Of a stretch of 35,584 bases of DNA, positions 4,073 through 33,776 are shown piece by piece (the first letter of the stretch is position 1; each line of letters starts with the position of its first letter). The position numbers were made by a program, and so were the translations under genes. A model generated the notes under the pieces. The model made no database searches and had not been told where the DNA came from. It was given only the letters and a program-made list of their open reading frames with translations. The DNA is from Limisphaerales bacterium (GTDB taxonomy: Bacteria > Verrucomicrobiota > Verrucomicrobiia > Limisphaerales > BOG-1460): the NCBI GenBank assembly GCA_003159675.1, contig PLQC01000157.1, positions 1 through 35,584 on the forward strand. The letters are read 5' to 3'.

Positions 4073-5275
4073 TCAACGCAACGCACCCGGGTTGGAGACG
4101 ATTCCCACAAACAAAATGGAGCGCGTGGTTTTGTCACCGATCACGAAGAAGAACGGACGATCCAGAATCATCTCAAAAGGATTTTCCGGTCGCATCACGG
4201 CCATGGTGCGGAGCGTGGCAGTGGTAACCGCTGCCGCTTCGGTTCCTTCCTCGTTCACTTCCACAAAACTTTTCTGCTTCACCTCGCTCAAAAACAATTT
4301 CTCGGCTGACATGGCCGAAAAGTCCGCGTCAGTGGAAAAGGCGCGCTTCATGCCCAGCGCTTCGAGCGGTTCGTTCAAGATCACATTGTAATTCAATTTG
4401 AAGCGCGGGAACACCACCATGCCTTCGCGGTCTCTAAATTGCGGCAGGATTTTATTTTGCCAGACTCTGCCATCGAAGCTGGCAAGGAGTTTTTTGATGT
4501 CAGAACCGTTGTTTGGAAGAATGAGACACATTTGCAGACGCCCGCCGGCATAGGGCAGACGCACGGCTTGAAATCCCTCCGCCTGAAAATAATCAAAATG
4601 CCCGTGCTGCTGCATCATCGGAACTTGTATTTGAGTTTCATCGGGCGGGGTGAACGCGCGATCCTTCGTCGCGCCCTTGTCAAACTCGTGCGCCCAACGG
4701 CCTTTGAAATAAATAGCGTTGGCAAGGATGACGCGGGTCAGCGGGTTCATCGGCCATTGGACGATGTCTTTGATTCGTCCGTGAGTATTTACCTCCGCCC
4801 AGTTGTTGATGATTTTGGCCGATTGCGGGCTGGCAAAATCCAGTGCGCCGATTTTCGCCTGGAAATAATTGGTGCTGCGAGCCATAAACTCCGGTTTCAA
4901 TTCGACGCCCTGCTTATACCAGATGGAATTGGCCAGACTCAGAGTGACATCGTTCTGACCGCTCGTGATGGATTGATCCAAACTTTTGCAAGCCGCGTCC
5001 CGCGCTGCCAGTCCGTTCACATGCAGGACGCTTTCCATTTCCTGTTTCGTCCTGCCCGCCGCGCCGTCGCCGACTATTTGCAGAACGGTTGAAACGCTGT
5101 AAGGCGAAATGAAAACATTGCCGCCAGGCTGTTTGCCGGCGATTTGTTTCAGCAAGTCAAAGGCAAAACCGGTGTTGGCCGCCGTCAGACTGTCCTGATC
5201 GGCCTGCGCATCCGCTAACGCAGAAAACCCGGCAATACAGATCAACACCAGCAGGCCTTGCCGCGCGATTTTCAT
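4073..5275 (-). CDS. Secreted serpin, inhibitory type
   Basis: This is a serine protease inhibitor of the serpin fold, 400 residues, close to the usual size. An N-terminal signal peptide (about residues 1-24, ending ALADAQA) sends it out of the cytoplasm. The hinge of the reactive centre loop reads EEGTEAAAVT (residues 342-351), with the Gly, Thr and small residues at P15 to P9 that are needed for loop insertion, so it should be inhibitory and not a storage-type serpin. The family signature is present as LDRPFFFVI (residues 371-379). The scissile bond falls somewhere in RTMAVMRP (356-363). The residues there favour an elastase- or chymotrypsin-like target over trypsin, but exact P1 is uncertain because the loop is slightly longer than in antithrombin. 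The gene starts 7 bases after the stop of a response regulator on the same strand and may be co-transcribed with it. No strong ribosome site is visible. Confidence 0.95.
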   Translation of the reverse strand: MKIARQGLLVLICIAGFSALADAQADQDSLTAANTGFAFDLLKQIAGKQPGGNVFISPYSVSTVLQIVGDGAAGRTKQEMESVLHVNGLAARDAACKSLDQSITSGQNDVTLSLANSIWYKQGVELKPEFMARSTNYFQAKIGALDFASPQSAKIINNWAEVNTHGRIKDIVQWPMNPLTRVILANAIYFKGRWAHEFDKGATKDRAFTPPDETQIQVPMMQQHGHFDYFQAEGFQAVRLPYAGGRLQMCLILPNNGSDIKKLLASFDGRVWQNKILPQFRDREGMVVFPRFKLNYNVILNEPLEALGMKRAFSTDADFSAMSAEKLFLSEVKQKSFVEVNEEGTEAAAVTTATLRTMAVMRPENPFEMILDRPFFFVIGDKTTRSILFVGIVSNPGALR

Positions 5276-25392: not shown

Positions 25393-27248
25393 AGCCACCG
25401 GACCCGACTCTCGACAGTCTCGACCACGCGCGCGAGGCGATCACCTGGTTTCGCCCGATGGAGGACCGGGAAGCCGATCACGCTCCATTGAGAGCGACTC
25501 TCATCCGCCGGATCTTCACTTATGCGCGACGATATCGCGGGCGGCGCAACTGCCTTTTTGTTCTCACCTTCCTGCGTGGCCTCCAGTTGCCCGCCCTGGC
25601 GTGGATGATCGGGCAGACGATCAACGGCCCGATCGCGGGCCATGATCTGCCCGGCATCTATCTCCATGCCGCGATTTATCTGGTCCTGGTTGTGTTCATG
25701 GTGGTGACGCTGCACTTTCGGCAGCGGCTCGCACTCGAACTGGGCGAAGCCGTCGCGCACGACATGCGTGCGGAATTATTTCAAAAGCTGATGACGCTGC
25801 CGATGTCGTTCTTCAACAAGACCAAATTCGGCCGCATCATCAGCCGGATGACGTCGGACATTGAAAATGTACGCGTGGCCGTGCAGGACGTGGCATTCGT
25901 CGTCACGATCCAGGCCGTGCAAATGGTCGTGGCCGCCGGGCTCATGGTCTGGTACGACTGGAAGCTGTTTTCGCTGATGCTGATGCTGGTGCCGGCCATC
26001 TGGGTGCTGAACGACAACTACCGGCGTGAAGCCAGCCATCAGTTGCGAAAAGTGCAGGAAACCTGGAGCCGCCTGACCTCCACGCTCGCCGAGTCGGTCA
26101 GTGGGATCCGCGTCACGCAGGCGTTCGTGCGACAGGAGATCAACGCGGGGTTTTTCCGCAAGCTGGTGAACGTGCATGGCGAAAACAACGTCGGCGCCGC
26201 GCATGCCTCCGCGGTGTTCATTCCCCTGCTCCAGATGAAGAGCCAGCTTTTCCTGGGTGTCATGGCCCTGCTCAGCGGCTATGGCGCGCTCCGCTGGCAC
26301 GGATGGCTGCACATGAACGTCACCGACCTCGTCATGTTCTTCTTCCTGGCCAATTTTTTCTTCGACCCCATCCAGGTGATCGGGAACCAGTACAACCAGG
26401 CGCTGGCCGCCATGGCTGGCGCCGAACGCTTCTTCCGGCTCATCGACCTCGAACCCGAATGGAAGGATGCGCCGACGGCAAAGCCGCTGCCTCCGGTCCG
26501 CGGACACGTCGAATTCCGAAAGGTGTGCTTCGAATACGAACCCGGTCGCCCGGTCCTGACGGATATTTCGTTCATTGCGGAACCGGGGCAGACGGTGGCC
26601 CTGGTCGGCCACACAGGCAGCGGCAAGACCACGCTCGCCGGCCTGCTCCAGAAATTTTATCTGCCGACACGCGGGAGCGTGCGCGTGGACGGCCGGGATC
26701 TTCTCGAGACGACCAGCGACTCGCTCCATCTGCAGATGGGAAGCGTGCAACAGCACAACGTGCTGTTCGCCGGTTCCGTCTCTGACAACATCCGGTTCGC
26801 GCGGCCGAACGCCGGAGAGGCTGACGTGCGCGCAACGCTCCGGGCTTTGGACTGCCTCGACCTGTTGGAGGCGCTGCCACGCGGCCTGGAAACGCAGGTG
26901 GGCGAGAAAAGCGCCGCCCTCTCCGCCGGTCAACGACAGCTCGTCTGCTTCGCCCGGGCGCTCCTCGCCGACCCGCGCATCCTCGTCCTCGATGAGGCCA
27001 CCAGCGCCATCGACACCGTCACCGAATCCCGTTTGCAACGGGCACTGGAAGTTCTCCTCCGCAGACGCACGGCCTTTGTCGTCGCACATCGCCTCAGCAC
27101 AATCCGCAAGGCCGACCTGGTGCTCGTGCTCGAGCAGGGCCGGATCGTCGAGCGGGGGACGCACCCGACCCTGCTGGCGGCCGGGGGTATTTACGCCCGA
27201 CTACACAGGGAATTCGTTCGCGGGAGTCTCGATGGCAGAACAGGTTAG
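25389..27248 (+). CDS. ABC exporter half-transporter with consensus catalytic residues
   Basis: This is the partner half-transporter, 619 residues, with the same six-helix plus ATPase layout. Walker A is GHTGSGKT with Lys 413. Walker B is RILVLDEATSAID with catalytic Glu 536, and the H-loop has His 567 (AHRLSTI). Its signature is LSAGQ (511-515) instead of LSGGQ; this motif would pair with the degenerate Walker B of the other subunit. The two proteins are therefore complementary, with one consensus and one degenerate ATP site. The ATG at 25389 overlaps the previous stop. No C39 peptidase domain is present, so it is not a leader-cleaving peptide exporter. It could move a lipid, drug or the product of the radical SAM enzyme. 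Confidence 0.94.
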   Translation: MKPPDPTLDSLDHAREAITWFRPMEDREADHAPLRATLIRRIFTYARRYRGRRNCLFVLTFLRGLQLPALAWMIGQTINGPIAGHDLPGIYLHAAIYLVLVVFMVVTLHFRQRLALELGEAVAHDMRAELFQKLMTLPMSFFNKTKFGRIISRMTSDIENVRVAVQDVAFVVTIQAVQMVVAAGLMVWYDWKLFSLMLMLVPAIWVLNDNYRREASHQLRKVQETWSRLTSTLAESVSGIRVTQAFVRQEINAGFFRKLVNVHGENNVGAAHASAVFIPLLQMKSQLFLGVMALLSGYGALRWHGWLHMNVTDLVMFFFLANFFFDPIQVIGNQYNQALAAMAGAERFFRLIDLEPEWKDAPTAKPLPPVRGHVEFRKVCFEYEPGRPVLTDISFIAEPGQTVALVGHTGSGKTTLAGLLQKFYLPTRGSVRVDGRDLLETTSDSLHLQMGSVQQHNVLFAGSVSDNIRFARPNAGEADVRATLRALDCLDLLEALPRGLETQVGEKSAALSAGQRQLVCFARALLADPRILVLDEATSAIDTVTESRLQRALEVLLRRRTAFVVAHRLSTIRKADLVLVLEQGRIVERGTHPTLLAAGGIYARLHREFVRGSLDGRTG

Positions 27249-27523
27249 CCTGGTTCCCGAAGGCTGTCGCCAGTGGTGGCAGCGATTTGCCGCCGCGCGT
27301 CCCATCCCGCCTGCAGGTCGGCCTTCCGCGACCGGAACATCGTCCGCCGAATTGCTTCCATTAAGCCGGACCGAGCAACACCGGATTCCAGAGTCACCAA
27401 ATTACCTTATAAAGTTCATTCGATAACTGCCGATAACGAACAATGCAGACTCTTCCCAAGCACGCAGATCCGGGCGGGCGATGGCTCGAATCTCATCCTG
27501 CGGAGCCACTGATATCTTCGTTG
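27249..27523 (+). other. Intergenic region before the kinase pseudogene, possible weak promoter
   Basis: No gene is supported in these 275 bases. A weak sigma-70 pair may exist: TTCCAG (27386-27391) and TATAAA (27408-27413), 16 bases apart. The open frame of the following pseudogene reaches back to 27443, but that part has no resemblance to the intact paralogue. Confidence 0.3.
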
Positions 27524-29947
27524 ATGCCTGCGCGAGCGAGGCTCGGAAAATCGCTGTGCGGAACAGCGGTTGGATGGCTTTTGCTCGGCATTCCCGCGGC
27601 CTGGGGCCAGGCATCCACCCCCCCTCCGATGGCAGAACGGGTCCTGACCAACATCTATGAGATTTGGACCATGCCGCATCAGCAGAAGAGTCAGCCGTAT
27701 CGGATACGGACCGAGATGGTGATCTATTATTTCGATTCCGAGTGGAACAACGCGTGGGGGGAATGCGAAGGAATACCGGCTTACCTGCCCATCTTCGACT
27801 GCCCAACGCCATTGAAGCCCGGCCAACGAATTGCCATCGATGGAGTCATCGTGCCGATCCGCGAACGATTCATCTGGGATCAAACCCGCGTCCGGATCCT
27901 CGAGGATGCGGTGCCGCTCAAGCCCGAGATGATACGGAATCTGAGCGACAACCCCAAAGCCTTGAAGGGGCATTTAATATCAGTGGAAGGGTTGATCGAC
28001 GGCCTGCTGGAAGATTCCACCCACATCACAATCAACTTTCTTGCGGGCGAAACCACGGCCAAGGCGTACCTGGTGAAGGAGGCCAAGGGCCAGCCACTTC
28101 AATTAAAAGAGGGGGACTTCGTGCGAATGGAGTGCGTGTACTCGCCTCAGTTCGACGTAAACGTGGATATCAATGACCTGAGCCTGTTGGTCCCCCGGCC
28201 GGCGGACGTTGAAGTGATCGGCTCCTTGAACACGGATCGCCGCTTTAACATTCCCATCACACCCAGCCAGGAGATACGCGAAGACACGCCGACGAACGAC
28301 ATCATCCATGTTCGGGATGTGGTGCGCAGCCATTAGCCGGGCAAATGGGTGACCCTCTGGGATGACACCGGACAGGTGATCGTCAAGAGCAGGCAGACCC
28401 AGCCCTTGCGCTTCGGCGACCGAGTGGATGCCATCGGCTACCCTTCCGTAATGGGCGTGGAACAGTGCCTGGAAGGGAGCCTCTATCGGCTGGCATCTTC
28501 CACCTCCAATCCGGTTTCCACCGGCCGGCCGGATAAATCTCCCCTGAGTCTGGCGGAACGGGTCCGGGACTTGAGCCGGGAGGAGACGACCCGACGGCTG
28601 CCCGTGAACCTTCACGCAATCGTCACGTGGGGGCATCTGGAACTGCCTTTCGCCTACGTGCAGGACGCCAGTGGCGGCATCCGCGTGGTGAACCCAAAGT
28701 GGGAGGAACGGGACGCCTGGAAACCGGGAACGATTGCGGCGGTGCGAGGCGAGGTTTGTGAGGGAGATTACGTGCCGGTCATTACAAACGCCGTGATCAG
28801 CCGGATGAGCTTTTGGAACCTGGAACCGGGCCGATCCGTGACACTGGAACAGGCGCTCACAGGAGTGGAGGATGGACATTGGGTAGAGATGCGGGGGTTT
28901 GTGCGTGATGTGACACCGACCAACAGTCTGGTGCGGCTGGATCTCAGCACCTCAAGCGGCGAGTTCCAGGCGTGGCTCCCCGCCTCGCAGTCGCTGGCCT
29001 ATTTGCGAGGTTCCATCATCCGATTGCAGGGCGTCTGCGCGGCTGTTTCGAATCCACGACATCAACTGACAGGGATTGAGCTTCTGGCACCCGACGTCAA
29101 GTACCTCCAAGTCGAAGAACCCGCGCCCGATGATCAGTTCTCCGGACCGCTGCGGCCCCTGGACAGCCTGCGGCGCTTCAGCCTGCAGAACGGGCTCAAT
29201 CAGCGTGTGCGGACGACCGGCACGGTGGTGTTGCACGCGCCGGGCAGCTACCTGTACGTGCAGGACGGTGTTGACAGCGTGCTCGCACTCAGCCAGCAGC
29301 GGGAGGTGCTCCAACCAGGCGAGCGGGTCGAAGTCGTGGGCTTCCCCGGCAACGAAGGTCGAAGGTTCCTCCTGCGAGAAGCCGCCTACCGTTCAAGAAC
29401 AGGTGATCGCCAAGGAACGGGCTCGCGAGGAACTGGCCGTGGCGCAGAGGAGCCTGATGCTCGCGTCCCGGCAGGCGGGCATGGCCGAAGTGGCCACCGG
29501 CGTCCTTCACAACGTCGGCAATGTCCTGAACGCCATGCCGTCAACCTCAAACGCGAGTTCTCCGACGTGCCGCCCATCGTGTCGGACCGCCACAAGGTCC
29601 TGCAAATCCTCACAAACCTCTTTCACAACGTCAAGTATGCCTGCGATGCAAACAACACCGGCGACCGGAAGATCACGGTGCGCCTGGGCCGCGCGAATGC
29701 AAACCGGATCAAGATCGAAGTGGCCGACAACGGCGTGGGAATTCCGCAGGAGAACCTCACCCGCATCTTTTCCTTCGGGTTCATCGCGCGCAAGAACGGG
29801 CATGGGTTCGGACTGCACAGCGGCGCTTTGGCGGCGAAGGAAATGGGCGGCTGCCTGTCCGCCCAAAGCGAGGGCGCAGGCAAGGGCACCACGTTCGTCC
29901 TCGAACTCCCGCTGAACCCGAGATCCGACACAAAAGCATCCGCCTGA
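27524..29947 (+). pseudogene. Decayed sensor histidine kinase, tandem paralogue of the gene at 30255
   Basis: This is a broken copy of the next kinase. It starts with a signal peptide (MPARARLGKSLCGTAVGWLL) and follows the intact protein through the repeated domains. An in-frame TAG at 28334-28336 interrupts it where the paralogue has GAA (SHEPGKW). The same frame continues to about 29393. There a deletion of about 524 bases relative to the paralogue removes the last repeat, the membrane helix and the start of the coiled coil, and shifts the frame. A second deletion of about 355 bases, near 29535, removes most of the phosphoacceptor helices and restores the frame, so the ATPase domain (DNGVGIP, GHGFGLHSG) is again in frame to 29947. 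A short out-of-frame segment still encodes VATGVLHNVGNVLN. The first 270 residues could still be exported as a truncated protein. Confidence 0.88.
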
Positions 29948-30254
29948 GGAAACGATTCAGGCGCCGGGGACCCGGAACGGGAGCGATTGCCGTCGATGCC
30001 TCCTGCAGGACTTCTCCAGACGGTGCCCAAGTGAATAAGTCTCTAAAGTTCCCTTCTGCGCAACCGATTACAGTTCGGGTTCTCCCATGCACTGCCCACG
30101 CACGCGGGCAGCGACCGGAACCCGATACCGTGGCACCGCTTATTTCTTTCCATGAGCCTGGCAGGGCCGACCTGCCGGTCAGCCCGAACGCGCAGCAGCG
30201 CGTCCCCACCCGGCTCATGACGTGCGAGCACCTCCGAAGAAGCAAGGGGGCTCC
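29948..30254. other. Spacer between kinase copies with palindromic repeat
   Basis: This 307-base spacer separates the broken and intact kinase copies. It contains the repeat element at 30151-30219, and the ribosome site AAGGGGG at 30244-30250 for the next gene. A 75-codon frame runs across the repeat (30031-30258), but its part over the repeat (RADLPVSPNAQQRVPT) is just translated repeat; it is not called a gene. Confidence 0.5.
30151..30219. repeat. REP-like element with two inner hairpins
   Basis: The outer inverted ends are CATGAGCC (30151-30158) and GGCTCATG (30212-30219). Inside are two perfect 6-bp hairpins: GGCAGG/CCTGCC (30160-30176) and ACGCGC/GCGCGT (30188-30203). This compound form is typical of REP or BIME elements. 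Its translation resembles strings I recall from many Verrucomicrobiota hypothetical proteins, so it may be an abundant family. Confidence 0.6.
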
Positions 30255-33200
30255 ATGAACCGTGGACACCGCCGCCAGGTTTTGGATTGCGCCAGTCCTC
30301 TGGCGCTTTCCTTGCGCGCGTTGATATTTCAAAAGCGGCAGAGTGCTGCCGCAGTCCAGGACGCTATCGCGCCAAGCCGGACCCATGGCGGTTCACGGTC
30401 CCCTTGCGCTCCCGATCTTTTGGGATTGAAGGCTTCCCATAAGCGTGGCCGGGCGAAGCAATGTGGCGCATGGCCGGGCGGAACGCTGTTTGGAACAGCG
30501 ATCGCACTCCTTTTGTCCGGCCTTCAGACCATTCGCAGCCAGACTCTGAACCTGCCCCCGGTCGGCGCAAGAGTCCTGACCAACATCTACGAGATTTGGG
30601 AAATGCCCCAGTCGCTCCGGAACGAAGCCTTCCGGATGGAAACCGAAATGGTAATCTACTATTTCGATCCCGAATGGAGAGTCGCCTGGGGAGAGTGCTG
30701 CGGGCGACCTTCCTTTCTGCCCATCGCGGACTCGCCCACTCCTTTGAAGGCCGGCCAACGGATTGCCCTCGACGGAGTCATCGTCCCGACACAGGAAAAG
30801 TTTGAATGGGACAAAACCCGGATCCGCATTCTGGCCGGTTCGGCCGACACCAAACCGGAGGCAATTCAGAGCCTGACGCGTAATGCCGCGGACATCAAGG
30901 GGCACCTGGTGTCCGTGACGGGCCTCATCGACCACCAGATCGAGGATCGGACGCATCTGACCCTCAACTTGCTTGTCGATGGCGAGACCGCCAGCGTCTA
31001 TGTCCTCAATAGCGGAAGCGGGCCGGCACCTCGCTTCAAGGCGGGCGATTTCGTCCGCATAAAGTGTGTTTACTCGCCGCAATTCAACAAGAACGGAAAC
31101 CTGAGCGATCTGACGTTGTGGGCTGCGCGGCCGGCGGACCTAGAGGTCATTGGTTCCCTGACGACGGATCCGCGTTTTGCCCTTCCGGTCACCCCCAGCG
31201 AACGAATCCGGGACGACACTCCCACGAATGACTTGGTCTGCGTCCAGGGCATTGTCCGCAGCCATGAACCGGGCAAATGGGTCACACTCTGGGATGTCAC
31301 GGGCCAGATCATGGTGCAGAGCAAGCAAACGCAACCGCTGCGCCTGGGCGATTCCATCGAGGCCATCGGCCATCCGTTTGTTCTGGGTGTGCAGCAGTGC
31401 CTTCAAGCCGGTTTGTACCGTCTGACAACCCATTCCATCCAAACCGCATCCACTCACACCGCCAAGCCGGACCAAACCGTCCTGCGGCTGGCTGAGCGCG
31501 TCCGTGACTTGAGCCGCGAGGAAGCGGCGCGGCACCCGCTCGTCATTCTTCACGGGGTGCTCACCTGGTATCATGCGGAAACCCCCTTCGTCTTCGTGCA
31601 GGACGCCAGTGGAGGCATCCGCGTGCTCAACCCGAAATGGGATGACCTCAACACAACGAAGCCGGGGACCATCGTGACGGTGCGCGGCGAGGTTGCTGAG
31701 GGCGATTTCGTGCCGGTCGTCACCAACGCCATGATCCGCAGGACCGGATGGTGGAACCTGGATGAGGCGCAAGCAATCTCGCTGGAGCAGGCCATGACGG
31801 GCGTGGAGGACGGGCGTTGGGCGGAAATGCGCGGTTACGTGCGGGACGCAACACAGGACAATGGCCTGGTGCGCCTGGATCTCAGCACCTCCAGCGGCGA
31901 ATTCCAGACGTGGACTCCGGCATCCCAATCCTTTGCCGCCCTGCGGGGCTCCATCGTTCGCGTGCAGGGAGTCTGCGCCGCCATCTCCAATTCGCGGCAC
32001 CAGTTGACCGGGATCCAGATCTGGGCGCCGGAGGCGAAATACATCCAGGTTGAGGAACCCGCGCCCGACGATCTGTTCGCCGGGCCGCTGCGCTCCCTGG
32101 GCAGTCTGCGCCGATTTAACCTGCAGAATGCTCTCAACCAAAGGGTGCGGACGACCGGCACGGTCGTTCTGCACGCGCCGGGCCGATACCTGTACCTGCA
32201 GAATGGAGCCGACAGCGTCTTTGCCTTGAGCCAGCAGAGCGACCCGCTGGAACCGGGAGATGAGGTGGAGGTCGTGGGGTTTCCGGGCGTTCAGGGCCGG
32301 AGGTTCCTGCTGCGAGAGGCCGCTTACCGCCGCATCTCGACCGGCAAAGAGCCGGCTCCCGCGCGATTGTCCTCAATGCAATCCGTGAATGTCGATATGG
32401 AAGGGGTGCTCGCCATCGCGGAAGGCACGCTGCTCAATATGGCCGAAAAAGAAGGCGAGTCGCGCCTGCTGATCCGCTCCGGAGATTCCACCTTCGAGGC
32501 GAGCCTGGATTCGACCGCAGACGATTCTCGAAAGCAAATTCAGGCTTTGGAGCCGGGCAGCCGGCTTGCCGTGACCGGGGTTTACGAAATGCAAAGCGAT
32601 GAATATGGAAAGCCTCGTTCTTTCCTGCTTCATCTTCGTTCCAAAAACGACATTCGTCTCCTCCAACTACCACCCTGGTGGACCCTGGCACGTCTGTTGT
32701 GGGTGCTGCTCGGCGTGCTGGGGGTGTCTGTCGTCGCGCTCACCTGGGGCCTCCTGATCTCTCACAAAAGCAAGTTGCTCAAGCAGGCGCAAAGCGCCCT
32801 GCAGGCGGCCAACGACCGGCTTGAACTCCGCGTGCAGGAACGGACGCACGAACTCCAGGAACAGGTCGCCGCCAAAGAACGCGCCCGCGCCGAACTCGCC
32901 GAAACGCAGGAAAACCTCGTGCTCACGTCCCGCCAGGCGGGAATGGCCGAGGTCGCCACCGGCGTCCTCCACAACGTCGGGAATGTCCTCAACAGCGTGA
33001 ATATCTCCTCCGGACTTCTGGGGGAACGGTTGCGGCGATCTTCCATCGAATCCGTCGGCAAAGTCGCCGACCTGCTCCGGAAACATCACGACCAGCTTGG
33101 CCGGTTCATGACAGAGGATCCCAAGGGCAAAGCCCTTCCCGGTTACCTCGAGAAACTGGGCGAGTTCCTCGTCCAGGACAAGCGTGAGATGCAGGCCGAA

Positions 33201-33776
33201 GTCGAATCCCTGGTCAAAAACGTCGACCATATCAAGGTCATCGTGTCCATGCAGCAAAGCTATGCCCGGGTCGGAGGCGTTCTGGAGGAACTTGATCCCA
33301 AGGACCTGGCCGAGGACGCCATTCAGATCAACAGCGCCGCCCTCGACCGCGACAGGATCCAGTTGATCCGCGATTACCATCCCGTGCCGCGCGTCATGGT
33401 GGACCGGCACAAAGTTCTCCAAATCCTGGTGAATCTTATCAGCAACGCCAAATATGCCTTGGACGAAACAACCGCAGACAAAAAAATGACCATGGCTATC
33501 TCCGCCATCGGCTCCGACCGCGTTCGCCTCACGGTAAAGGATAACGGCATCGGCATCCCTACGGAGAACCTCAACCGTATCTTCTCTCAGGGCTTCACCA
33601 CCCGGAAAGACGGCCACGGATTCGGCCTTCACAGCGGCGCAAACGCGGCCAAAGAACTCGGGGGATCCCTGACCGTCCAAAGCGAGGGGACAGGACGCGG
33701 GACGACCTTCATCCTCGAACTGCCCACGGCAACGGCTTCGCCCGCCCGAGCCTCCGTGCCCACGCCGGACCATTAG
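30255..33776 (+). CDS. Large sensor histidine kinase with OB-fold-like repeat array
   Basis: This is an intact membrane histidine kinase, 1173 residues from the ATG at 30255, which follows a strong ribosome site (AAGGGGG). A GTG at 30222 is an alternative. After an odd 70-residue leader comes a hydrophobic segment (GGTLFGTAIALLLSGL, about 76-91) acting as signal or anchor. Residues 105-800 form about seven OB-like beta repeats, with recurring patterns such as VQGIVRSHEPGKWVTLWD, FVFVQDASGGIRVL and VRTTGTVVLHAPG. A membrane helix (814-835) leads to a coiled coil, a phosphoacceptor helix TGVLHNVGNVLNSV (His 906, followed by Asn instead of Glu or Asp) and an ATPase domain with N1060/N1064, DNGIGIP (1096) and GHGFGL (1120). 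It has no receiver domain, and no regulator gene adjoins it. The signal is unknown. Confidence 0.9.
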   Translation: MNRGHRRQVLDCASPLALSLRALIFQKRQSAAAVQDAIAPSRTHGGSRSPCAPDLLGLKASHKRGRAKQCGAWPGGTLFGTAIALLLSGLQTIRSQTLNLPPVGARVLTNIYEIWEMPQSLRNEAFRMETEMVIYYFDPEWRVAWGECCGRPSFLPIADSPTPLKAGQRIALDGVIVPTQEKFEWDKTRIRILAGSADTKPEAIQSLTRNAADIKGHLVSVTGLIDHQIEDRTHLTLNLLVDGETASVYVLNSGSGPAPRFKAGDFVRIKCVYSPQFNKNGNLSDLTLWAARPADLEVIGSLTTDPRFALPVTPSERIRDDTPTNDLVCVQGIVRSHEPGKWVTLWDVTGQIMVQSKQTQPLRLGDSIEAIGHPFVLGVQQCLQAGLYRLTTHSIQTASTHTAKPDQTVLRLAERVRDLSREEAARHPLVILHGVLTWYHAETPFVFVQDASGGIRVLNPKWDDLNTTKPGTIVTVRGEVAEGDFVPVVTNAMIRRTGWWNLDEAQAISLEQAMTGVEDGRWAEMRGYVRDATQDNGLVRLDLSTSSGEFQTWTPASQSFAALRGSIVRVQGVCAAISNSRHQLTGIQIWAPEAKYIQVEEPAPDDLFAGPLRSLGSLRRFNLQNALNQRVRTTGTVVLHAPGRYLYLQNGADSVFALSQQSDPLEPGDEVEVVGFPGVQGRRFLLREAAYRRISTGKEPAPARLSSMQSVNVDMEGVLAIAEGTLLNMAEKEGESRLLIRSGDSTFEASLDSTADDSRKQIQALEPGSRLAVTGVYEMQSDEYGKPRSFLLHLRSKNDIRLLQLPPWWTLARLLWVLLGVLGVSVVALTWGLLISHKSKLLKQAQSALQAANDRLELRVQERTHELQEQVAAKERARAELAETQENLVLTSRQAGMAEVATGVLHNVGNVLNSVNISSGLLGERLRRSSIESVGKVADLLRKHHDQLGRFMTEDPKGKALPGYLEKLGEFLVQDKREMQAEVESLVKNVDHIKVIVSMQQSYARVGGVLEELDPKDLAEDAIQINSAALDRDRIQLIRDYHPVPRVMVDRHKVLQILVNLISNAKYALDETTADKKMTMAISAIGSDRVRLTVKDNGIGIPTENLNRIFSQGFTTRKDGHGFGLHSGANAAKELGGSLTVQSEGTGRGTTFILELPTATASPARASVPTPDH
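30280..30361. repeat. REP-like double hairpin inside the kinase reading frame
   Basis: Two hairpins lie about 28 bases apart: GCGCCAG/CTGGCGC (30289-30306, 4-base loop) and GCGGCAG/CTGCCGC (30335-30352, 4-base loop). The two arms are also inverted copies of each other (about 23 of 30 bases), with paired C/G differences that keep each hairpin perfect. The element is translated as LDCASPLALS and KRQSAAAVQDAIA within the kinase N-terminus. Confidence 0.65.

Follow-up and report, generated by a model that had tools for sequence, protein, structure and literature searches.

Introduction

In the relevant part of a survey of myxobacterial two-component genes, the formation of pseudogenes by small insertions and deletions, local duplication, and gene loss are presented as normal (PMC4603909). 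The corresponding part of another paper reports that GTAG-type REP repeats are highly enriched in O. terrae (PMC3733652). Our literature search found no paper on an OB-fold periplasmic sensor domain of a histidine kinase, on tandem duplication or pseudogenes of histidine kinases in Verrucomicrobia, on two-component systems of Limisphaerales, or on the gene described here.

The window that we analysed is an entire contig of 35,584 bases from a Limisphaerales genome (4.11 Mb, 182 contigs, 96.7% complete), in which two sensor histidine kinase paralogues lie next to each other. The upstream one, copy A, is very probably a recent pseudogene that stems from an old tandem duplication, and the downstream one, copy B, its intact, diverged paralogue.

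A broken paralogue directly upstream of an intact one

Copy A (27524-29947) lies directly upstream of copy B, an intact sensor histidine kinase ORF at 30222-33776 whose true start is uncertain; both, like all window features below unless stated otherwise, are on the plus strand. Copy A is read in a single frame as two ORFs (27443-28336 and 28349-29947), with one TAG at 28334-28336 between them. A preliminary description had proposed that the broken segment tracks its intact neighbour almost domain by domain, and alignment of the two copies bore this out. Four collinear blocks were obtained with blastn, with E-values from 0 to 3e-8, which excludes a chance match: the sensor (A 27641-29391 against B 30573-32329, 69.6% identity over 1772 columns), the H-box (29394-29531 against 32856-32993, 80.4% over 138), and two blocks in the ATPase region (29566-29642 against 33383-33459, 75.6% over 78; 29726-29910 against 33540-33724, 72.4% over 185). 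At the protein level, the two sensors are 64.6% (about 65%) identical over 583 columns.

Three lesions interrupt copy A. Counting from the ATG at 27524, the in-frame TAG is preceded by 270 codons; it lies inside the third of the OB-like barrels that make up the sensor (see below), which it is predicted to cut just after its first strand; in the alignment, B and five relatives have Glu at this residue. The size of the first deletion, whose junction is at 29391/29392, comes to about 512-524 bp, depending on the sequence used for comparison: 524 bp with B, 521 bp with the relatives G228 and G282, and 512 bp with UBA7542. This deletion shifts the frame, and with it copy A has lost barrel 7 together with the end of barrel 6, the membrane helix and most of the coiled coil. 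The other deletion, at 29531/29532, measures 355 bp against each of the same four sequences; it restores the frame and leaves little of the phosphotransfer (DHp) domain. These sizes were derived from alignment coordinates, and all four comparisons agree modulo three. Both junctions fall within 29390-29545, where deletions had been expected.

Because the two deletions sum to a multiple of three, the HATPase_c fragment of copy A (29532-29944) is back in the sensor frame; in it, the GFTTR motif has become GFIAR. Between the junctions, 140 bp remain of the coiled-coil end and H-box (29392-29531). Their old frame still reads QEQVIAKERAREEL...GVLHNVGNVLNA and is out of frame in the present ORF, as is the His codon at 29508-29510. 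When this 140-bp stretch was shuffled, 28% of the resulting sequences were still open, and the continuous ORF across it is therefore no evidence of function. Under pure decay, the frame would be regained after the second deletion by chance only, about 1 in 3 times 0.28, a point that counts against this reading. Of 74 sites in the kinase remnant at which six homologues agree throughout, copy A has changed at 6, two of them in the GFTTR motif; in the other six rows of the alignment, the same region shows 1 to 10 changes at 69 to 78 such sites.

Copy A cannot yield a membrane-anchored kinase: it no longer encodes the anchor, the codon for the phospho-acceptor His has fallen out of frame, and the ATPase fragment lies downstream of the stop. 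In having an intact homologue and a product abolished by the TAG and two deletions, it matches a pseudogene, and it lacks the anchor and in-frame His of a working kinase.

We consider it improbable that the lesions are assembly errors or a strain mixture and that the cell carries an intact copy A. The assembly is fragmented (182 contigs), the UBA7542 MAG homologue also has an in-frame stop, and the two deletions jointly preserve the frame, all of which would suit an artefact. Yet the two copies are only 70% identical, so that collapse of the pair is unlikely, and conserved kinase residues are altered in the remnant as well. Three lesions in one 2.4-kb gene also contrast with the 18 other ORFs scanned in the window: 17 have a Pfam match, each as one uninterrupted frame (in one case under the cut-off), and the remaining one runs antisense to an ORF with a match. 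The window further contains a serpin gene at 4073-5275 on the minus strand (Pfam PF00079, 371 bits).

Purifying selection and the timing of the loss

To estimate selection, a codon model was fitted to the sensors of A, B, G228, G282 and UBA7542 (582 codons). Omega was 0.116 on the A branch, 0.083 on the B branch and 0.210 on the rest; these values are rough, since the model was purpose-written and synonymous divergence is high, near saturation. For copy A, 2dlnL stays within 3 units for values between 0.08 and 0.15, and fixing omega at 0.2 or 1.0 costs 6.4 or 53. Such strong purifying selection on both copies implies that the duplication is old and the loss of copy A recent. The sensor omega of copy A is not raised after the loss, a comparison with little power because the loss is recent.

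The counts of deviations at otherwise invariant sensor sites are 11 of 159 in A (one being the stop) and 6 of 154 in B; the relatives give 4/152 (G228), 6/154 (G282), 21/169 (G147), and 30/178 in both G057 and G059. An excess of third-position differences from B is still present in the kinase remnants of A: at codon positions 1, 2 and 3, the copies differ at 5, 5 and 17 of 46 sites in the H-box, and at 11/62, 8/62 and 32/61 sites in the ATPase region. Codon-model estimates for these remnants were discarded, for the ATPase because the fit ran to its bounds with synonymous sites saturated, and for the H-box because it offered too few codons.

The preliminary description had suggested that the part of copy A up to 28333 could still be made and secreted as a decoy or ligand-binding subunit, and had proposed dN/dS of the N-terminal part as a check. 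In the form weighed here, the first 270 codons would be expressed as a secreted two-barrel ligand-binding protein serving B as a decoy or co-receptor. The start codon and a signal-peptide-like N-terminus are intact (27524-27616, beginning MPARARLGKSLCGTAVGWLLLGIPAAWGQA..., a probable signal peptide read by eye from the sequence), and two complete barrels precede the stop. Omega is 0.112 over the 231 codons before the stop, low enough to fit a retained product, but it is alike over the 351 codons after it (0.124), which speaks against a separate constraint on the N-terminal part, with the reservation that a recent loss leaves this test little power. The cut through the third barrel also tells against a secreted product, as does the finding that, among 320 genomes of the order, no relative has such a truncated gene. 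The region 27200-30600 held no sigma-70-type promoter match, against 0.8 expected in shuffles, which is weak evidence. We therefore do not uphold the suggestion and regard a secreted product as very improbable. Even less credence is due to the fuller proposal that copy A is now a secreted two-barrel binder tuning B, whose sensor would be a seven-barrel OB array outside the cytoplasm, of a kind not yet described. A short truncated product would be of consequence only if its expression were demonstrated.

Relatives and ancestry of the pair

With the N-terminal 297 residues of copy A as query, matches at E 1e-30 were found in 9 of 320 genomes of the order, and matches in 3 of 384 genomes drawn from the class; both counts include the genome itself, and the two draws overlap. 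The named relatives that carry the sensor are Verrucomicrobia MAGs, and those searched belong to the same order, with none from the same genus or family among them. Both copies had been proposed as something to look for in related genomes: intact homologues exist in the order, and the tandem pair is absent from all other genomes among the 320. Besides the genome itself, only G282 has two matches, which lie on different contigs and are distantly related to each other. No synteny was found between the other window genes and genes of the relatives beyond general two-component matches. The kinase is followed by a convergent MFS-type gene in the window and also in G059, with no mutual match between the two MFS-type genes reported at E 1e-8. 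The UBA7542 homologue has an in-frame TGA just before its H-box (L134 2209-2211) and is either a pseudogene or affected by a sequence error. In G147 (L124 4003-7770), the same sensor is joined to a different kinase with PAS, HATPase and receiver domains, a sign that the sensor has been shuffled.

Over the same 583 columns, protein identity is 61.9% between A and G228, 61.2% between B and G228, and 59-61% between either copy and G147; by sequence, A and B thus appear roughly as far apart from each other as either is from G228 or G147. That A is an anciently separate second paralogue, or a transferred copy, standing beside B with no local duplication in this lineage is the most serious alternative, though still an unlikely one. 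It draws on the A-B identity, which is only slightly above that of A and G228, and on the AU test, which does not reject trees placing A beside G228/G282 (p 0.47) or beside G228/G282/UBA7542 (p 0.21); A could then have its origin in another ancestral copy or in transfer. Against it, A and B are nearest relatives in the best tree of both data sets (support 57/75 and 74/87, below the trust mark of the tool), and the corresponding placements of B are rejected (p 0.025 with G228/G282; p 0.042 with G228/G282/UBA7542). Local duplication is the simplest reading of the pair and is not proven. Of the earlier claim of a tandem duplication with loss of one copy, the tandem paralogues and the loss of A by a stop and two deletions stand, and the local duplication itself is left as this simplest reading.

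Copy B, its start and its predicted sensor

Copy B is a sensor histidine kinase by its HATPase_c domain (33402-33731, residues 1061-1170; Pfam PF02518, 70.8 bits against a cut-off of 26.4). Both this ATPase domain and the membrane helix (32679-32765 by the structure model) are intact. Among solved kinase cores, ZraS (9jfj) is the closest to it in sequence (E 8.5e-14). No Pfam match to HisKA was reported for B, and the H-box was assigned by alignment: coiled coil and H-box span 32856-32993, and the motif GVLHNVGNVLN is conserved in B and its relatives. We infer that the His of this motif (codon 32970-32972) is the phospho-acceptor. All displayed NCBIfam matches were far under their cut-offs.

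The start of B at 30255, as given in the preliminary description, is doubtful, since both 30146-30219 and 30251-30443 recur as dispersed repeats at other places in the genome. A search with 29948-30500 gave 43 genome matches, its own place included, and inverted repeats are present. The first repeat (30146-30219) is palindromic and REP-like and occurs at many genome places, several copies having GTAGGG at one end. The second, palindromic with paired hairpins, forms with an adjoining repeated stretch the segment 30251-30443, which covers the proposed start and is found again at a few places. Translations from two other genome places match residues 15-68 of the long B ORF. Upstream of the signal-peptide-like stretch of B are two in-frame TTG codons, at 30420 and 30426, and both lie within the repeated stretch as well. 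As far as the cited account of GTAG-type REP repeats goes (PMC3733652), the window repeats resemble them in being palindromic and dispersed, with several genome copies ending in GTAGGG, and differ in that the window copy reads GCAGGG, without the exact tag.

The sensor of B (30570-32672) is predicted to consist of seven consecutive OB barrels, followed by one membrane helix. An AlphaFold2 model of 30570-32765, built with 20 aligned sequences, had a mean pLDDT of 86.8 and showed seven five-strand units in a row (counted manually from the strand list) and then a long hydrophobic helix of 26 residues, an arrangement that would place the sensor outside the cytoplasm. The OB-like barrels are modelled at 30627-30839, 30897-31160, 31230-31430, 31533-31757, 31812-32063, 32139-32348 and 32403-32672. 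VIA-align superposed five-strand barrels of the model on solved OB domains with Z up to 12.5 and rmsd of 2.3-2.8 A over 90-96 residues, mainly asparaginyl-/aspartyl-tRNA synthetases and replication protein A; these matches cover model residues 399-576 and 598-703, and the other barrels were assigned by strand order only. No Pfam family exceeded its cut-off across the sensor, and the Pfam OB-fold PF01336 gave weak matches, at E 0.1 or better, in 9 of 20 members. Many top Foldseek rows for the sensor are DNA-binding OB proteins. We do not claim nucleic-acid sensing by the array, as the barrel charges are balanced and a shared fold shows no function.

In three relatives, G228, G282 and UBA7542, the last bases of the kinase gene are shared with an overlapping hybrid kinase/receiver gene (L123 12034-13818, L122 1991-3775 and L134 3051-3665; the last, from UBA7542, is cut by the contig end). 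In G228 and G282, this gene matches two receiver stretches, HisKA and HATPase in Pfam, and it is probably the receiver for the kinase in the three genomes. No hybrid gene follows A or B in the window. The closest hybrid homologues in the genome itself are 38-55% identical over their parts; no partner was assigned among them, since a quick tree did not group them with the hybrids of G228, G282 and UBA7542.

Discussion

In the reading that we prefer, an old tandem duplication would have produced two adjacent sensor histidine kinase genes, each with a barrel array and one membrane helix. For most of the time since they parted, purifying selection would have maintained both, as the codon model shows, until copy A was recently inactivated by a nonsense change and two internal deletions. 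Copy B most likely senses an extracytoplasmic ligand through its seven OB barrels, and the signal would pass through the one membrane helix and the coiled coil to the H-box/HATPase kinase, which would phosphorylate a receiver encoded elsewhere. The locus is a clean case of paralogue loss among bacterial sensor kinases after long selection, by the ordinary mechanism of gene decay; the noteworthy part is the large seven-OB-barrel sensor, which has no named Pfam family.

As in the part of the myxobacterial survey cited above, copy A shows the loss of a two-component gene, here after a probable local duplication (PMC4603909); the present case differs in that it comes from another phylum and that the copies had long diverged before one was lost. 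With HATPase_c kinases, including ZraS, copy B shares the membrane helix, the H-box and the ATPase domain. It differs from them in having no reported HisKA match and in its sensor, a predicted array of seven OB barrels.
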